A stretch of 31,187 nucleotides of DNA from a virus. Every line of letters begins with the position of its first letter. The stretch's first letter is position 1. The stretch covers positions 1-31,187 of the IMG/VR virus record IMGVR_UViG_3300035703_003729; one strand, 5' to 3'. The notes under the pieces were generated by a model, which was given only the letters and a program-made list of their open reading frames with translations, searched no databases and was not told where the DNA came from. A program made the position numbers and the translations under genes. Of the stretch, positions 4,810-25,286 are shown piece after piece.

Positions 4810-6135
4810 TTAATGTCTGGTATTCTTGATTTCGTCAATTCGTTCATCAATTATTTTTAAGTCAAAGTCCTTTCTTTCCTTTGAGTAAAACAGTCTTATG
4901 TTAAACAAAAATGAATTGAATAATGCACTTTTTATCATACTATCAAGTCGTCCAAAAAATTCCGTATCATTATCTACTGCTGCTCTTATCCTTATAAAAT
5001 GCCAAAGATTAAGTCCTGATAAAAAGTCTTGGTCGAAAAACCCGCTTAATAGTCGGTGTCTAAATTTTGGGTCAATCAATTTAAAATTTACAGTCAACAG
5101 CCTTTTTAAAACAGAACTGTCCTTAAACCTTGCTCCGCTGTCAAGCAAAGAGAAGTAATGCTCAACACCTTTATTAATCATTTCTTGGTTTTCTGTATCT
5201 CTGAGCAAGTCAAATATTTCAAATGCCCAGTATTTCTCAAATTCTGCTCTTGATTGAAATTCTTTAACCTTACTGCTATTAACATTTAAGTTTATTTTGA
5301 ACAGCTCTTTTGATGCTTCAAATAAAATAAGTCTTGCGATTTCTTTATTATGTGTGAAAATTATTTGGTCGTCTGCAAATCGAATAAACTTTGAGTCGTA
5401 TTTTTCGCAAATCTCTTTCATTGCCATATCGAAGTCCTGTAAATAAAAGTTTGCAAGTATCCTTGAGCAATCACCAATTTCATCTTGCGGGAGTCCAACC
5501 GTCTTGATATTATAGCCTTCAATTTTTTTGTTCCAATTTTGAAGGAAGTGAAAAAGCAATGTTACTATTTCCTGCTTTGTTTTTGGAACAGCGTGTCGAA
5601 TTTTTCTTTCAAGGATAGCCAAATTTACTGTGTCATAAAAGTTGGCAATGTCTAAGTTTATGTAATAACTATAACTTCCGCTGTCGTTGTACTTACGAGC
5701 AATATTCTGAAAGGAACGCCATTCTTGTGTCCAAGAAAGTTCATTGATTGTATTGAAAGGAACGTAGTCTAATTCAATGATTTCTTGTTCTTCTTTAAGT
5801 CTTATTGGATTACCGAGTGTCCATCCGCCAAATGTTCCTTCAACCCTGTTTACTGCAACTTCGTGTTCGAGCAATTTTAGGGTTAGGTAATAAACGCAAT
5901 AGTCCTTACGGTTAAAAGTCGGAACAAACCGAGTTACACCGTTATGTTTGTTAATGTGAATGTAGTGTCTCGGGTGGCTTGGTGTATATGTGAAGTCAGT
6001 TACTTGCGAATGTAGTCTATCCAAAAAATCATTTTTATCCACAGGTTTGTCTGTAAACGGAACGATACTTTCATTCAGCTTAGTCCAAAATTTAGTGTTG
6101 AATAATTCTAAAAATGAGTTCTTATCTATCTTCAT
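4810..6135 (-). CDS. Reverse transcriptase of the Abi/DRT (unknown-group) type
   Basis: 441-aa RNA-directed DNA polymerase. Motif A reads YINLDIANFYDTV with Asp162 and Asp168, motif B is GLPQDEIGDCSRILANFYL (from 214), and motif C is FIRFADDQIIF with the catalytic pair Asp255-Asp256. The N-terminal part carries RFVPTFNRKDYCVYYL (about 69-84) and NRVEGTFGGW (about 96-105). The C-terminal third (about 305-441) is helical with no recognisable maturase or endonuclease domain. That architecture fits bacterial defence RTs (Abi/UG/DRT) better than group II introns or classical retrons. Its start lies inside the end of the 157-aa gene (14-bp overlap), so the two are translationally coupled. The exact UG class cannot be fixed by eye. 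Known relatives act in anti-phage defence, sometimes with an adjacent noncoding RNA template. Confidence 0.88.
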   Translation of the reverse strand: MKIDKNSFLELFNTKFWTKLNESIVPFTDKPVDKNDFLDRLHSQVTDFTYTPSHPRHYIHINKHNGVTRFVPTFNRKDYCVYYLTLKLLEHEVAVNRVEGTFGGWTLGNPIRLKEEQEIIELDYVPFNTINELSWTQEWRSFQNIARKYNDSGSYSYYINLDIANFYDTVNLAILERKIRHAVPKTKQEIVTLLFHFLQNWNKKIEGYNIKTVGLPQDEIGDCSRILANFYLQDFDMAMKEICEKYDSKFIRFADDQIIFTHNKEIARLILFEASKELFKINLNVNSSKVKEFQSRAEFEKYWAFEIFDLLRDTENQEMINKGVEHYFSLLDSGARFKDSSVLKRLLTVNFKLIDPKFRHRLLSGFFDQDFLSGLNLWHFIRIRAAVDNDTEFFGRLDSMIKSALFNSFLFNIRLFYSKERKDFDLKIIDERIDEIKNTRH

Positions 6136-18657: not shown

Positions 18658-19971
18658 TTACAGTCTGTTTTGGGGGTTGATTTGGTTGAGCGTGGCGATC
18701 ATGTAATTGCGGAACCACCAGCACAGGTTGGGGTATTTTTGTTTCCATCCGTTAAATTCGCTCACCACGTCGAGCGGTTCCAGAATCACGTCCTGGTCCG
18801 CTTTCGCGTTCAGGAGGTAGATATCCCTTGCCACCCGTTTGTCGCTGCCCGAGCCCGAGCTGCCGTGATTACGGCCCGGGCCCTGTCCCACGAGTGTCGG
18901 GTCCACGCTGAGCGCGCGCATGATGTGGGCGCTTGCCTCCTGAGAATCCTCGATATAGGCACCGTCCTTGATGGGGTCTTGAATCGGTGTGATGATCCAG
19001 CCTTCGTGCATTTTGCCGTCTAGATTTACGGTATATTCCGTGATGAAGCTTTTTCCCGCGTTTTTTTCACCTGCGAGAAAATCATCGAACGCCGCTAGTT
19101 CATCCTTTTTCTTCTGAATGCGTTCATCGGTCGAGTAGGTGTCCCAGAGCGGGTATTTTGACGGCCAGTAATCTTTGGGCACTTTGATTTGAAACTTGAT
19201 GGAGATTTGTTTTTTCATCAGGTTTCTTTTGAATTCCGGGATGGCCTTTTCGATATCGAGCCAGCCCGAGTTGAACAGGGCGTGCCATGCCGCGTCCTGG
19301 TAGTAGATTTTTCCGGGCGTGGGGAAAGCCGTGGCGTACATGAACCGGGTTTCCGGTCTGTTTTTGATGGACATGGCCGGATCCCAGTAGGGGTCAAGCA
19401 GGGGGATTTTATGGGTTTCCCGTTCCGAGGGTGCTTTTTCCCAGTTGGCGAACAGGTAAACGAAGGGGATATTTCCCGTGCGTTCGTTTTGCACCGCGAA
19501 GCGGCAGAACGAAGCCTCCTGCACGGTTATGGTGGCGATTTTGGTACGTTGTTCGTTGAGGATGAGTTCCGAGAACACCTGATTGAACCAATAGTAATCC
19601 GATGCCGCTTCCCGGCTGAAGCGTTTGAGGGCAGATTGAAACATAAACGCATCGATATCCGGGTCCGAGAACGGGACGAGTTTTTCGTTTCCGTTTTCAT
19701 CGAATTGAAGGTTTCCGTAGATGAGTCCACCCGATACGAGCGCTTTGATTTTCCAGTCCAGCAGGGCGGGGATTTGGTCGCTTCCCCAGGCTTTTTTGGC
19801 TACCGTCTGCGGGTAGAGGTTATCCGTACCCCAGGGGTAGTAAAAATAATCGCGGTCATCCGCTTCCACGGCGGGCAGCGGTTGTTTCGGGGCCGTTTCC
19901 GCGTCCGTGAGTACCGCTTCACATCGGGAGCTGTATAGAATACCGTGTGTGCTTTCCGAGATCGTCACCAT
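18658..19971 (-). CDS. Phage portal protein
   Basis: 437 aa. Portal-type features include FYYPWGTDNLYPQTVAKKAW near 42-62, an ALLDWKIKALVSGG helix near 69-82, and the typical C-terminal DPTLVGQGPGRNHGSSGSGS loop followed by DKRVARDIYLLNA. It should form the ring at one capsid vertex through which the terminase pumps DNA. ATG 19971 overlaps the stop of the 89-aa gene by 7 bp. The portal is here separated from the large terminase by more than 3.6 kb of accessory and noncoding DNA, which is uncommon. Confidence 0.85.
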   Translation of the reverse strand: MVTISESTHGILYSSRCEAVLTDAETAPKQPLPAVEADDRDYFYYPWGTDNLYPQTVAKKAWGSDQIPALLDWKIKALVSGGLIYGNLQFDENGNEKLVPFSDPDIDAFMFQSALKRFSREAASDYYWFNQVFSELILNEQRTKIATITVQEASFCRFAVQNERTGNIPFVYLFANWEKAPSERETHKIPLLDPYWDPAMSIKNRPETRFMYATAFPTPGKIYYQDAAWHALFNSGWLDIEKAIPEFKRNLMKKQISIKFQIKVPKDYWPSKYPLWDTYSTDERIQKKKDELAAFDDFLAGEKNAGKSFITEYTVNLDGKMHEGWIITPIQDPIKDGAYIEDSQEASAHIMRALSVDPTLVGQGPGRNHGSSGSGSDKRVARDIYLLNAKADQDVILEPLDVVSEFNGWKQKYPNLCWWFRNYMIATLNQINPQNRL

Positions 19972-20652: not shown

Positions 20653-20872
20653 TTTGTAAATTTTTATTACAGATGACGAATCTACACAAAATTTAAACGC
20701 GCAAAGCGTCCATAAACCGCCCATCGGGCGTCACTAAACTTACGCGTAGCGTTCCATAACGCCCTGCGGGCGGCTGCCGTGTAAAAAGTTCCTTCCGTGC
20801 CGTGATCATCCTTTTTACACAAAAACACCTATTTATCCGTAAAAAAAAGCAGCCGCCCGCAGGGCCGCGCCC
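20653..20872. other. Repeat-rich, structured spacer upstream of the AT-rich gene
   Basis: 220 bp without a gene. A 17-bp perfect stem pairs GCCCTGCGGGCGGCTGC (20761-20777) with its complement at 20849-20865. Nested inside is a 10-bp stem, GTGTAAAAAG (20779-20788) with CTTTTTACAC (20811-20820). An imperfect direct repeat (20705-20730 and 20748-20772; AGCGTCCATAA / AGCGTTCCATAA, each followed by a CGCCC..GGGCG-type arm) and the palindrome TACGCGTA (20741-20748) lie beside it. Together with the terminator at its edge this could be a small RNA, a 5' leader of the AT-rich gene, or a protein-binding site. Confidence 0.5.
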
Positions 20873-20902
20873 AAAAAAAACGGCCTGTTTACAGGCCGTT
20901 TT
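20873..20902 (-). terminator. Rho-independent terminator after the 74-aa gene
   Basis: AAAACGGCCTGT pairs with ACAGGCCGTTTT, and eight T follow on the minus strand (A8 at 20873-20880 on plus). It lies 8 bp beyond the TAA of the 74-aa gene and ends the DUF932 transcript. Confidence 0.9.
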
Positions 20903-22073: not shown

Positions 22074-22505
22074 TCAGATTTGCGCCGTGTTTATTTCCGT
22101 TTCAATTTCTTGGATGCGTTCCGCGAACAGGTCCTCCAAATAGCTTTTGAGTTTGGAGATCAGGCGCGTGTTAGAGGTCGTGAACGTGTCCTCTCCGGAG
22201 ATTTTGAGTGTGGCATTGGTGCCGTTGTCCGCGAAACCCCACGAGCGGAGCGCGTCCAGTTCGGCGCGCAGGTTGGTGAGTCCGCGCAGTTTTTCCGAGT
22301 TTTCGCGGATAGCCTTTTCGCGTTCCGCGAGTGTCGGCCTGGGCGGTTCCGGTTTCAGTCCTGCGGCCTGGATGAGCGTTTGTAATTGCTCGTCCTGATT
22401 AGCCGTTTGCGTTTCCGTTGTCGGCGTGTTCCCGTTAGGGGTGTTTTGTGCTTGCGCGGGGGTTACTTCCTTCGCCCCTTGTGCGCTCTTGTTTTTGTTG
22501 CTCAT
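22074..22505 (-). CDS. Hypothetical phage accessory protein
   Basis: 143 aa. The first 45 residues are Gln/Thr/Asn-rich and probably disordered (AQAQNTPNGNTPTTETQTAN); the rest is charged helix (RPTLAEREKAIRENSEKLRG; LEDLFAERIQEIETEI). No known family. It starts MSNKN with the leader GTAATCAAAnnnTTACAATTTT, almost the same as before DUF932. It is the first gene after the long noncoding region, with a 15-bp palindrome (22571-22605) about 65 bp before its start. Confidence 0.72.
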   Translation of the reverse strand: MSNKNKSAQGAKEVTPAQAQNTPNGNTPTTETQTANQDEQLQTLIQAAGLKPEPPRPTLAEREKAIRENSEKLRGLTNLRAELDALRSWGFADNGTNATLKISGEDTFTTSNTRLISKLKSYLEDLFAERIQEIETEINTAQI

Positions 22506-22570
22506 AAAATTGTAACTATTTGATTACCTTTCAAATATCGTAAAAAATACCATACATTCCGCTGATTAGA

Positions 22571-22605
22571 CCGAAAAAAATGCAAAATAATTGCATTTTT
22601 TTCGG
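22571..22605. terminator. A/T-tract palindrome upstream of the 143-aa gene
   Basis: CCGAAAAAAATGCAA pairs perfectly with TTGCATTTTTTTCGG over an AATAA loop. The stem contains its own T-run on either strand, so it could be a bidirectional terminator, or an operator for the gene starting at 22505. Confidence 0.55.
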
Positions 22606-22631
22606 CTGATTTTCAAGCAGTTACCCCAATA

Positions 22632-22653
22632 GAAAAGCGGCTTTTTAGCCGCT
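22632..22653 (-). terminator. Terminator at the end of the long noncoding region
   Basis: AGCGGCT/AGCCGCT stem (22636-22642 with 22647-22653) around a 4-nt T loop; on the minus strand TTTTCT follows. It marks a plausible 3' end for RNA transcribed from the right. Confidence 0.7.
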
Positions 22654-23618
22654 CGTCACGGAGTGCACCCCGCCCCGCTCTGTCGGTCGGGCAATTTCCG
22701 GAGGTGGTCGGTTTTCGGATATGTGAGGGAGCGCGCGCCTGCGGCGCGCCGCCCCTACTGAGCGTTGCGAGTGCAGCTTGTCTGCAATTGCTTAGGCTCA
22801 GTTGGTCATGGGAAACGCCACGGCACCTGTGCCGTTCCGAATAGTCAAAATCCACCTGGCCGGAGGCGTGGTGGATTTTCTTTGCATTCACATGCAGCTG
22901 CGCCCCCATGCGCACATACGTGTTATATTCCGATAAACAAAGCGCATGGGGGTCGTGGGTGCATGGCAGAATGGCCCGTGATACGGGAGCGGAAAGAGGA
23001 GCGGGAGCGGGGGAGCGTACGCGTACCGATGCAGCGACGATGGAGCGAGTCTTCACGGGCATTTCTGCGGCAGTGGTACGTGATCATGGAGGCGTCGCAT
23101 CCGGTGGGTTAAGGGAACGCAGTGGACGTCCCCCGGGAGCAGAGACGGAATGACACGTACATCTGCCTTTTTTGGGCGAAGGAAGGTTTTCCGGAGCCTG
23201 CGGAGGGATTCCTTCCCGCCTTGGCGTGGGATGTTCTGCCGTAGGCACGTAGGCGGATATTCCCGCGCCCTGCAGTCAATAAAACGCAGTGGTGCGCATG
23301 AAGCAGGCGGCGCCGCCGAAGGGATTGCGGCAGCGTGCGGACGCATCTTCGGCATGGCATAGACGTATTTATGCGCACCTCTGCCCGGTAGTATGTCATG
23401 AACAGGCTTTACGGTCGGAGGCACGGAGACCGTTATGCCTGATGATGCAAAAGGGATGGGAACAGGCTGCCGTGCAGCGTGGACAGCCCGGTCACGCCGC
23501 AGGTACGGAGGCGGGATTTGCCCTGATTATTCAGACGGTTCAATCATCGGTGTTCTATTTTTTAAAAATTACCGTGTTATATACACCATTTATTCTGCTT
23601 ATTTTTTTGGTAATTCCA
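22654..23618 (-). ncRNA. Candidate large structured RNA between large terminase and accessory block
   Basis: About 965 bp with no credible protein gene on either strand, although short frames exist in several frames. Perfect or near-perfect stems occur one after another: 22733-22749 (GCGCGCC/GGCGCGC), 22758-22801 (CTGAGC/GCTCAG with inner TGCAG/CTGCA), 22820-22835, 22847-22879 (10 bp), 22903-22952 (11 bp, CCCCCATGCGC) and 22975-22987. Further right are 23286-23384, where GCAG-T-GGTGCGCAT pairs with ATGCGCACC-T-CTGC across 71 nt, and 23403-23441, where two helices CAGGC/GCCTG and ACGGTC/GACCGT are joined by a 3x3 loop. A minus-strand terminator closes the left end, so I favour the minus strand. 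The general plan resembles large phage RNAs such as GOLLD or ROOL, but I cannot show kinship. Confidence 0.55.
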
Positions 23619-25286
23619 CTAATAGATAATGCCTGAAGAGTCTTGGTACAGTTGTTCCGGTTTCACGTAGTATTTTCCGTACACCAATGTATCAAAAGCA
23701 TCCGTCACGTGGGTAGTTTCCGCCTGGTCTATCGTCGTATCCGTTTCCGCTTTCTTATTCTTTTCAAAGCCTTCCCGTGTCTGCCTTGCTTCCGCGTTAT
23801 TCAATGCCGTAATTAAGTGTGGGCAGTTGTTTCTGTTGATTCGTATTGTCGGAAATTTCACGGATTGTTCCTGAAAAAGTTGACCGAAATATTCAAATCG
23901 GCTGTTATGTCCCGGGGTCATTCCTATATAGAGATCATTCACCTTCCATCCCAGGTTACGCAGTTGGTTTCCGAATTCCTGATAGAAGATAATGTTTGTC
24001 GCCGCGTTGCGCCCCTGTTTCGCCGTATGATCCCAGTAATAATCTATCTCTTTGCGCGGCAGTGATTTATAGTACCGGTCAAATTCATGGGCCAGGTCTT
24101 TCAGAACTTTCGGGTGATACACGAAAAGGTGGTTGAGAATTCTGAACTCATGGTCGTTGTGTTTTGTCGGTTGGCCTATCACCAGGTTATTGATGGAATA
24201 ATTGTTATCCATGGCCACATATAACTTATCCGAGCGGTTGATGTCCGCATCCTTTCGGCAGTCGGGGAATTTGGCATATTCCACCAATTTAAGGATGTTA
24301 TAATCGAACGAGTCGATGTAGGCATAATCGTAGGCATCGTAGGTGTGGCGTGTATCGTCAAACGTGGCATAAAAGCTTTCAGCCACTTTGGGGGCGCGGA
24401 AGTTGAGAATGGAGGTTTTAAACAGAAAGTCCGAGCTCATCCCCTGTTTCTGGTCGCGCACGTATTTGGGTCCGAGGGCCTGCAGCACGTCAATCGGTTT
24501 AGGCTCCGTATAGAATACCAGATTTTTGCGTCTGTCGTATAACTGTTTTTCCAGTTGTTTGATTTTATAGAGATACGTGCGGTGCGAAGCCTCGCTGACG
24601 CTATTCTGTTGGAGCAGCAGGAGCAGACGCGCCCGTTCCCGTTCCAATACCACCACCTCATGCACCTTATTCTTATCCATGAGACCTTCATACTCATAGA
24701 TCCATTTGCCGTTCGGGGAAGTCGGCTGATCCGTGCAGAACAGTCTGCCGCCGTGTTCCGAGAAGCGCGCGAAGATTTTATCGTTTCCGCGCAGCGTCTG
24801 GATGGATTCATCGTCGTATTGTTTTTTGTTGATGAGTTTCGCTTCATCGATGATATGCCAGTCCGTCGAAAGACCGTTCGACGTGCCCTTTCGGTCCTGG
24901 CTGATGAGGTGAATTCCCGAGCCCGTTATGGTCGAGATGAAATAATCCCAATGGCGCGGATAGACGTAGGGTTTGGGCCATGCGGCGGGCGGTTTTTTCC
25001 CGATGACGTAGTGTTTATCCTCCTTCCATCCGAACATGTCAAATCCCGCGAGAACCGGCGGCAGCGTTTTGGCCAGCAGGGTGACGAACGTGGGCGCCAC
25101 GAAAACCCCTGTTCCTTTGCGCAGGCGAGTTAGGTTATTGATTGCGCGTGCCGAAATAAGTCCGGTGGATTTGCCCATGCCTCTCGGCCAGATATGAAAT
25201 TCCTGGTTGGCGTTCACCGTGGCCGACAGGAGTTGGTAACGGTTGAACTTGATGATGCGCGTATCGTCAGGGTTCGATGTCGTCAT
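23619..25286 (-). CDS. terL: Phage terminase large subunit
   Basis: 555 aa. Walker A variant PRGMGKST lies at about 34-41 and Walker B DWHIIDEAK has D147-E148. The C-terminal RNase H-like nuclease shows aspartates D360 (LYVAMDNN), D419 (DYYWDHTAKQG) and D529 (HVTDAFDTLVYG). It is the ATP-driven motor that packages and cuts phage DNA at the portal. ATG 25286 overlaps the upstream gene by 20 bp. The gene is followed by the 1-kb noncoding region, not by the portal. Confidence 0.92.
   Translation of the reverse strand: MTTSNPDDTRIIKFNRYQLLSATVNANQEFHIWPRGMGKSTGLISARAINNLTRLRKGTGVFVAPTFVTLLAKTLPPVLAGFDMFGWKEDKHYVIGKKPPAAWPKPYVYPRHWDYFISTITGSGIHLISQDRKGTSNGLSTDWHIIDEAKLINKKQYDDESIQTLRGNDKIFARFSEHGGRLFCTDQPTSPNGKWIYEYEGLMDKNKVHEVVVLERERARLLLLLQQNSVSEASHRTYLYKIKQLEKQLYDRRKNLVFYTEPKPIDVLQALGPKYVRDQKQGMSSDFLFKTSILNFRAPKVAESFYATFDDTRHTYDAYDYAYIDSFDYNILKLVEYAKFPDCRKDADINRSDKLYVAMDNNYSINNLVIGQPTKHNDHEFRILNHLFVYHPKVLKDLAHEFDRYYKSLPRKEIDYYWDHTAKQGRNAATNIIFYQEFGNQLRNLGWKVNDLYIGMTPGHNSRFEYFGQLFQEQSVKFPTIRINRNNCPHLITALNNAEARQTREGFEKNKKAETDTTIDQAETTHVTDAFDTLVYGKYYVKPEQLYQDSSGIIY

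Follow-up and report, generated by a model that had tools for sequence, protein, structure and literature searches.

The window analysed here, the 31,187-base IMG/VR virus record, carries its late genes on the minus strand. In minus-strand order, capsid-side genes are followed by the large terminase gene terL (23619-25286), a gap, a 143-aa gene, a DUF932 gene and, farther along, the portal gene (18658-19971). The portal was assigned from a PHROG portal match (E=1.3e-4) and from tblastn matches to the portal-position ORFs of relatives; in linear relatives, it lies at the opposite genome end. The terL product is 36% identical to the annotated TerL of Microcystis phage Mea-Yong924-1. Since the nearest isolates reached only 36% identity, no relative exceeded 37% and neither Pfam nor PHROG gave a match to terL, this phage lineage is sparsely sampled. 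The gap, located at the 3′ end of terL, extends from 22506 to 23618, between minus-strand genes at 22074-22505 and terL.

The first-pass annotation had proposed that 22632-23618 (987 nt) contains no credible protein gene and forms a large structured phage RNA of about 1 kb, on the general plan of GOLLD and ROOL. The first of these statements was borne out. The longest ORF in the gap was 123 aa, compared to a mean of 121.5 aa in shuffled sequences, 122 of 300 of which had an ORF at least as long, and a 149-aa minus-strand ORF that overhangs the gap edge had no Pfam match. As ORF lengths were at the level of chance, we rejected a protein-coding reading of the gap.

Folding of the 987 nt exceeded chance on both strands (z -5.3 on the plus strand and -5.0 on the minus strand, relative to dinucleotide shuffles), with the plus strand folding at lower energy. 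Four long inverted-repeat families were present, whereas 60 shuffles averaged 0.23 such families and none had more than 1. Most of the fold excess came from 22726-22990 (z -5.5); the middle part of the gap gave z -4.4, and 22966-23440 alone folded weakly (z -2.1, with 5 of 150 shuffles as low). All the stems that had been listed are present: those within 22733-22987 are repeats I11, I6, I7 and I12 (22726-22987), the helix at 23286-23384 is I3, which pairs 23286-23302 with 23368-23384 and contains a T.T mismatch, and the helix at 23403-23441 is I1 (23397-23447). A terminator-like hairpin followed by T-rich sequence is also visible at 22636-22653, where a minus-strand terminator had been claimed. 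Searching the window against Rfam revealed no match to any family, and blastn of the whole gap against phages and plasmids gave no match.

Two separate conserved parts lie within the gap. The part farther from terL is a candidate cos element (E2, 22653-22727, plus strand), made up of an upstream cosN half, a cleavage point, a dyad and a GATATGTGA motif at fixed spacing. The motif was first noticed in the gaps of relatives that lack the second conserved part, which lies on the same strand. About 27 relatives carry it at a fixed length immediately beyond terL, on the strand opposite to that gene. The consensus, of about 49 nt, consists of C-rich CACGCN/CTRTC (slash, cleavage point), a GCAATTGC-type dyad and GATATRTGA. 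A sequence model built from 27 other phages, with the window excluded (R2), matched 22653-22727 (E=1.8e-8) as its sole match in the window, and position and orientation relative to terL were those of the relatives. The predicted cut falls before 22680 on the plus strand, and the 10-nt cohesive overhang, CCGCCCCGCT, is predicted at 22670-22679. These are followed by an imperfect dyad, GGGCAATTTCC (22689-22699; family consensus GGCAATTGCC in alignment A6), and by the GATATGTGA motif (22718-22726, plus strand), the best conserved block, in which ATRTG is invariant or nearly so in alignment A6.

Just outside cos, on the other genome end, is the terminator-like hairpin (minus strand). A 15-bp perfect inverted repeat (CCGAAAAAAATGCAA/TTGCATTTTTTTCGG, 22571-22605), between the 143-aa gene and cos, is also on that end. 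The minus strand encodes, without a single difference, the peptide RPTERGGVHSVTSG, which the first-pass annotation had described as an ending of short annotated Bacteroidales ORFs; it lies at 22648-22689, with its stop at 22645-22647, in a stretch that overlaps the cos cleavage site. Its supposed wide distribution was not seen: there were zero exact DNA matches in the genome and viral contig collections.

Contigs from relatives revealed a defined DNA end at this motif. CTRTC marks the exact terminus of six contigs from different metagenomes (L012, L036, L041, L056, L069 and L271), and L040 stops one nucleotide past this point, giving seven contigs from seven metagenomes. In all four contigs of this kind that were checked (G397, G399, G400 and G401), terL was at that end and the portal at the far end, and in contigs that span cos, the motif has terL on one side and, on the other, the genes that lead to the portal. 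Five others (L014, L045, L049, L063 and L073) end near cos, not exactly at the site. No matching other cos half was visible at the far contig ends, which loss of a 3′ overhang during library preparation could explain. The linear record of Cellulophaga phage Ingeline, the ends of which were not determined experimentally, starts 10 nt before CTGTC, with terL at one end and the portal gene at the other. A cos site with a 3′ overhang is found in HK97. The record of Polaribacter phage Leef joins just past terL, and for this phage PhageTerm predicts “Cos 3′”, that is, 3′ cohesive ends (PMC8776804). From the contig ends, the placement of terL and portal at opposite ends and the Ingeline and Leef records, we conclude that the motif at 22653-22727 is, on sequence grounds, a cos site, its end position being read from relatives rather than from the window's own virions. 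Cleavage probably leaves a 10-nt 3′ overhang, a length and type that we infer from the Ingeline record and the Leef prediction.

As in the cos site with 3′ overhangs predicted for Leef (PMC8776804), the window has a defined genome end by the terminase gene and a putative 3′ overhang. Unlike such sites, it lies at the 3′ end of terL, not before the terminase genes, and its family carries a different motif (CACGCN/CTRTC, dyad and GATATRTGA). The cos packaging locus is an ordinary kind of object with a new sequence family, and the motif provides a way to place the genome ends of Bacteroidota phages from sequence alone. Literature searches with the raw motif strings returned only chance matches to primers.

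The second conserved part, adjacent to terL, is a small branched element. Comparison of the gap with 395 Bacteroidia genomes by blastn gave repeated matches to one stretch of 35-45 nt (window 23443-23496 at its widest). The first 11 aligned copies formed a three-way junction with a 5-bp P1, a 3-bp P2, a P3 with a CGU-type loop and a variable P4; every pair cell was standard, with two-sided changes at 9 of 17 pairs. With 65 copies, 99.8% of cells paired and two-sided changes occurred at 14 of the 17 pairs. Across alignments A3, A4, A7 and A8, standard pairs made up 99.1-100%, with many two-sided changes and strong covariation (34 two-sided and 0 one-sided changes in A7); the phage copies also covaried among themselves (A8). 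A covariance model from which the window was excluded (R3) detected the window copy of the element (R1) at 23444-23526 on the plus strand (63.5 bits, E=3.7e-13). Its helices are P1 (23447-23451/23517-23521), P2 (23453-23455/23487-23489, extended by 23457-23458/23484-23485), P3 (23462-23470/23474-23480) and the variable hairpin P4 (23491-23516). This 83-nt element, which the first-pass annotation had not singled out, is the one part of the gap with demonstrated covariation.

Copies of this element with a longer P3 stem are the Rfam family Flavo-1 (RF01705). Matches to RF01705 coincided, on the same strand, with R1/R3 matches in phages (L023, L036, L045, L048 and L064) and in genomes (e.g., G196 and G039). 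The window copy had no RF01705 match even at E<=10 and did not reach the Rfam gathering threshold, and we therefore call it Flavo-1-like. It resembles Flavo-1 in its core, strand, bacterial phylum and dispersed multi-copy habit and differs in its short 5-bp P3 with a CGU loop; judged by the shared core, it is a short-stem variant that had gone unrecognised. Flavo-1 itself dates from a 2010 report (PMC2864571). The portions of the Flavo-1 literature available to us assign no function and describe neither a fixed place beside terL and cos nor a near absence of G-U pairs. As far as that literature shows, the position beside cos is new.

Using an earlier covariance model, we detected copies in 115 of the 395 sampled Bacteroidia genomes, with tens per genome in some. 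Chromosomal copies were intergenic, had unrelated flanks and no orientation preference, and occurred in all gene arrangements, including divergent ones. At one orthologous chromosomal site, some congeners carried the element and most of the others examined lacked it, which fits a mobile or readily lost repeat. In phages with related terminases, nearly all copies found sat right at the terL stop codon, in opposite orientation to the gene; the window copy, also on the opposite strand, is 93 nt beyond the stop. A scan of viral contigs for the core pattern, made independently of terL, identified 11 contigs, 9 of which had terL on the 3′ side within ~150 nt. This position is kept across terminases that are only 30-43% identical. 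The Flavo-1-like element is missing from many relatives that do have cos; packaging in general therefore does not require it.

Some copies occurred as outward-facing pairs around short stretches with unrelated genes (L196:832-893/1963-2023 and L198:1197-1258/1962-2022), and these comprised two subtypes, with GCG/CGC and GGG/CCC as P2. We rejected the idea that the pairs are transposon ends, as the enclosed genes were ordinary and not transposases. REP elements moved by RAYT transposases are likewise dispersed, structured intergenic repeats. This reading of R1 was also rejected: no copy was near any of 30 Y1_Tnp genes, and three R1-rich genomes had no Y1_Tnp match.

We asked whether the helices behave as RNA or DNA. 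Only 6 of 842 standard pairs in the Flavo-1-like helices were G-U (0.7%), compared to 56 of 1000 (5.6%) in tRNAs of the same genomes (Fisher p=8e-10), and the phage copies had 1 among 437 standard pairs (441 pair cells). Collecting copies with a model could contribute to the low G-U content, although the blastn-derived set, A3, was equally low (1/177). The near absence of G-U pairs suggests a fold at the level of DNA. The role of Flavo-1 as an RNA is an assumption in Rfam, and the superfamily counts among the most abundant sRNA families listed for bacteria. A transcriptome study (PMC9723704) reported Flavo-1 to be indifferent to transcript sense, its hits falling without distinction on the sense or the antisense strand and frequently beyond transcribed regions. 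A DNA fold is favored by this report together with the strict Watson-Crick rule and the lack of orientation preference. The expanded P3 inserts of two contigs, in which ~250 nt replace the P3 stem of terL-side elements (L043:5617-5891 and L044:3570-3844, minus strand), would suit RNA equally well.

A model that accommodates these data, to which we give a probability of roughly three in four, is that the gap serves a tailed phage of Bacteroidota as its DNA-packaging locus, carries a Flavo-1-like element and is not one long RNA. The terminase would cut the concatemer at cos (22670-22680), probably leaving 10-nt 3′ cohesive ends, such that terL would be on one genome end while the other end would lead to the portal. 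The dyad and GATATGTGA motif, inside the terL-side end, would be the presumed terminase recognition part, similar to cosB. Between cos and terL, the Flavo-1-like element would fold into a strict Watson-Crick three-way junction. Our tentative view, held at somewhat less than even odds, is that this element, as folded DNA, marks the region of packaging or end processing and belongs to the same family as the mobile repeats of the hosts. A broader proposal, which we consider doubtful, is that the entire Flavo-1 superfamily is a mobile DNA element rather than an RNA and acts through a folded strand or a cruciform with strict Watson-Crick pairing, with phages keeping the cos-side copy for packaging, end processing or recombination with host copies.

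Between the two conserved parts is a GC-rich, multi-hairpin spacer of 0.72 kb (22728-23443), which folds with z -4.9 on the E2 strand and -4.5 on the terL strand. On the idea of a single RNA, the whole ~1 kb would be one plus-strand structured phage RNA with a Flavo-1-like 3′ domain and a fast-evolving body. The plus-strand fold excess and its lower energy agree with this, as do the ~250-nt P3 inserts and the spacers of relatives, which are non-coding too and in some cases highly structured (z -5 to -10). However, the window's spacer, which contains the stems listed at the outset, had no blastn match in phages or plasmids, and no homologue was found. Relatives have 55-360 nt at this place; with the window included, spacer length runs from 55 to 716 nt, and certain spacers lack structure. 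Further, the claimed RNA would contain cos, and the helices of its conserved part avoid G-U. The window resembles the GOLLD and ROOL RNAs (PMC12286853) in being a large, non-coding, structured phage region, and differs in having neither an Rfam match nor a conserved body and in that one end, the 5′ end of the gap, is a packaging site; the two conserved parts explain the ends. What stands of the original proposal is a non-coding, highly structured, terL-adjacent region with a conserved covarying part inside, and we regard a single long RNA as quite improbable.

The position of the phage copies bears on two other explanations. The element could be a host repeat inserted into the sole tolerant gap of the phage, with no phage function, as its dispersal in Bacteroidia chromosomes without preferred orientation and its variable presence among congeners would allow. 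This is unlikely, since phage copies are nearly always at the terL stop and on the opposite strand despite the divergence of the terminases, and covary among themselves. That most phage copies start at the terL stop codon would also fit a role in terminating transcription of the terL operon or in processing its 3′ end. The element has no U tract, its chromosomal copies are found in every gene arrangement, and the reported Flavo-1 hits show no preference for sense (PMC9723704); we consider this role decidedly improbable. Least credible, and in our view very improbable, is a reading of 22653-22727 as a late promoter or a regulatory sequence instead of cos. This stretch is a DNA motif of fixed spacing upstream of the next operon, but no promoter motif was identified, and contigs end there with nucleotide precision, with terL and portal at opposite ends. 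For the packaging-locus model, a fixed copy by a phage packaging site, together with G-U avoidance, provides a testable lead to a DNA role of the Flavo-1-like element in packaging or recombination.

Elsewhere in the window, the top local fold in the scanned part was at 20700-20900 (z -9.6 on the plus strand), where GC-rich hairpins, including AACCGCCTG/CAGGCGGTT, are flanked by two minus-strand genes. A DRT-class defence reverse transcriptase, RT_UG13b, is encoded at 4810-6135 on the minus strand (PADLOC E=2.6e-153); its neighbours are a 157-aa partner ORF and a 1038-aa ResIII-type protein. Together these make up a region of defence cargo located at the phage contig end.
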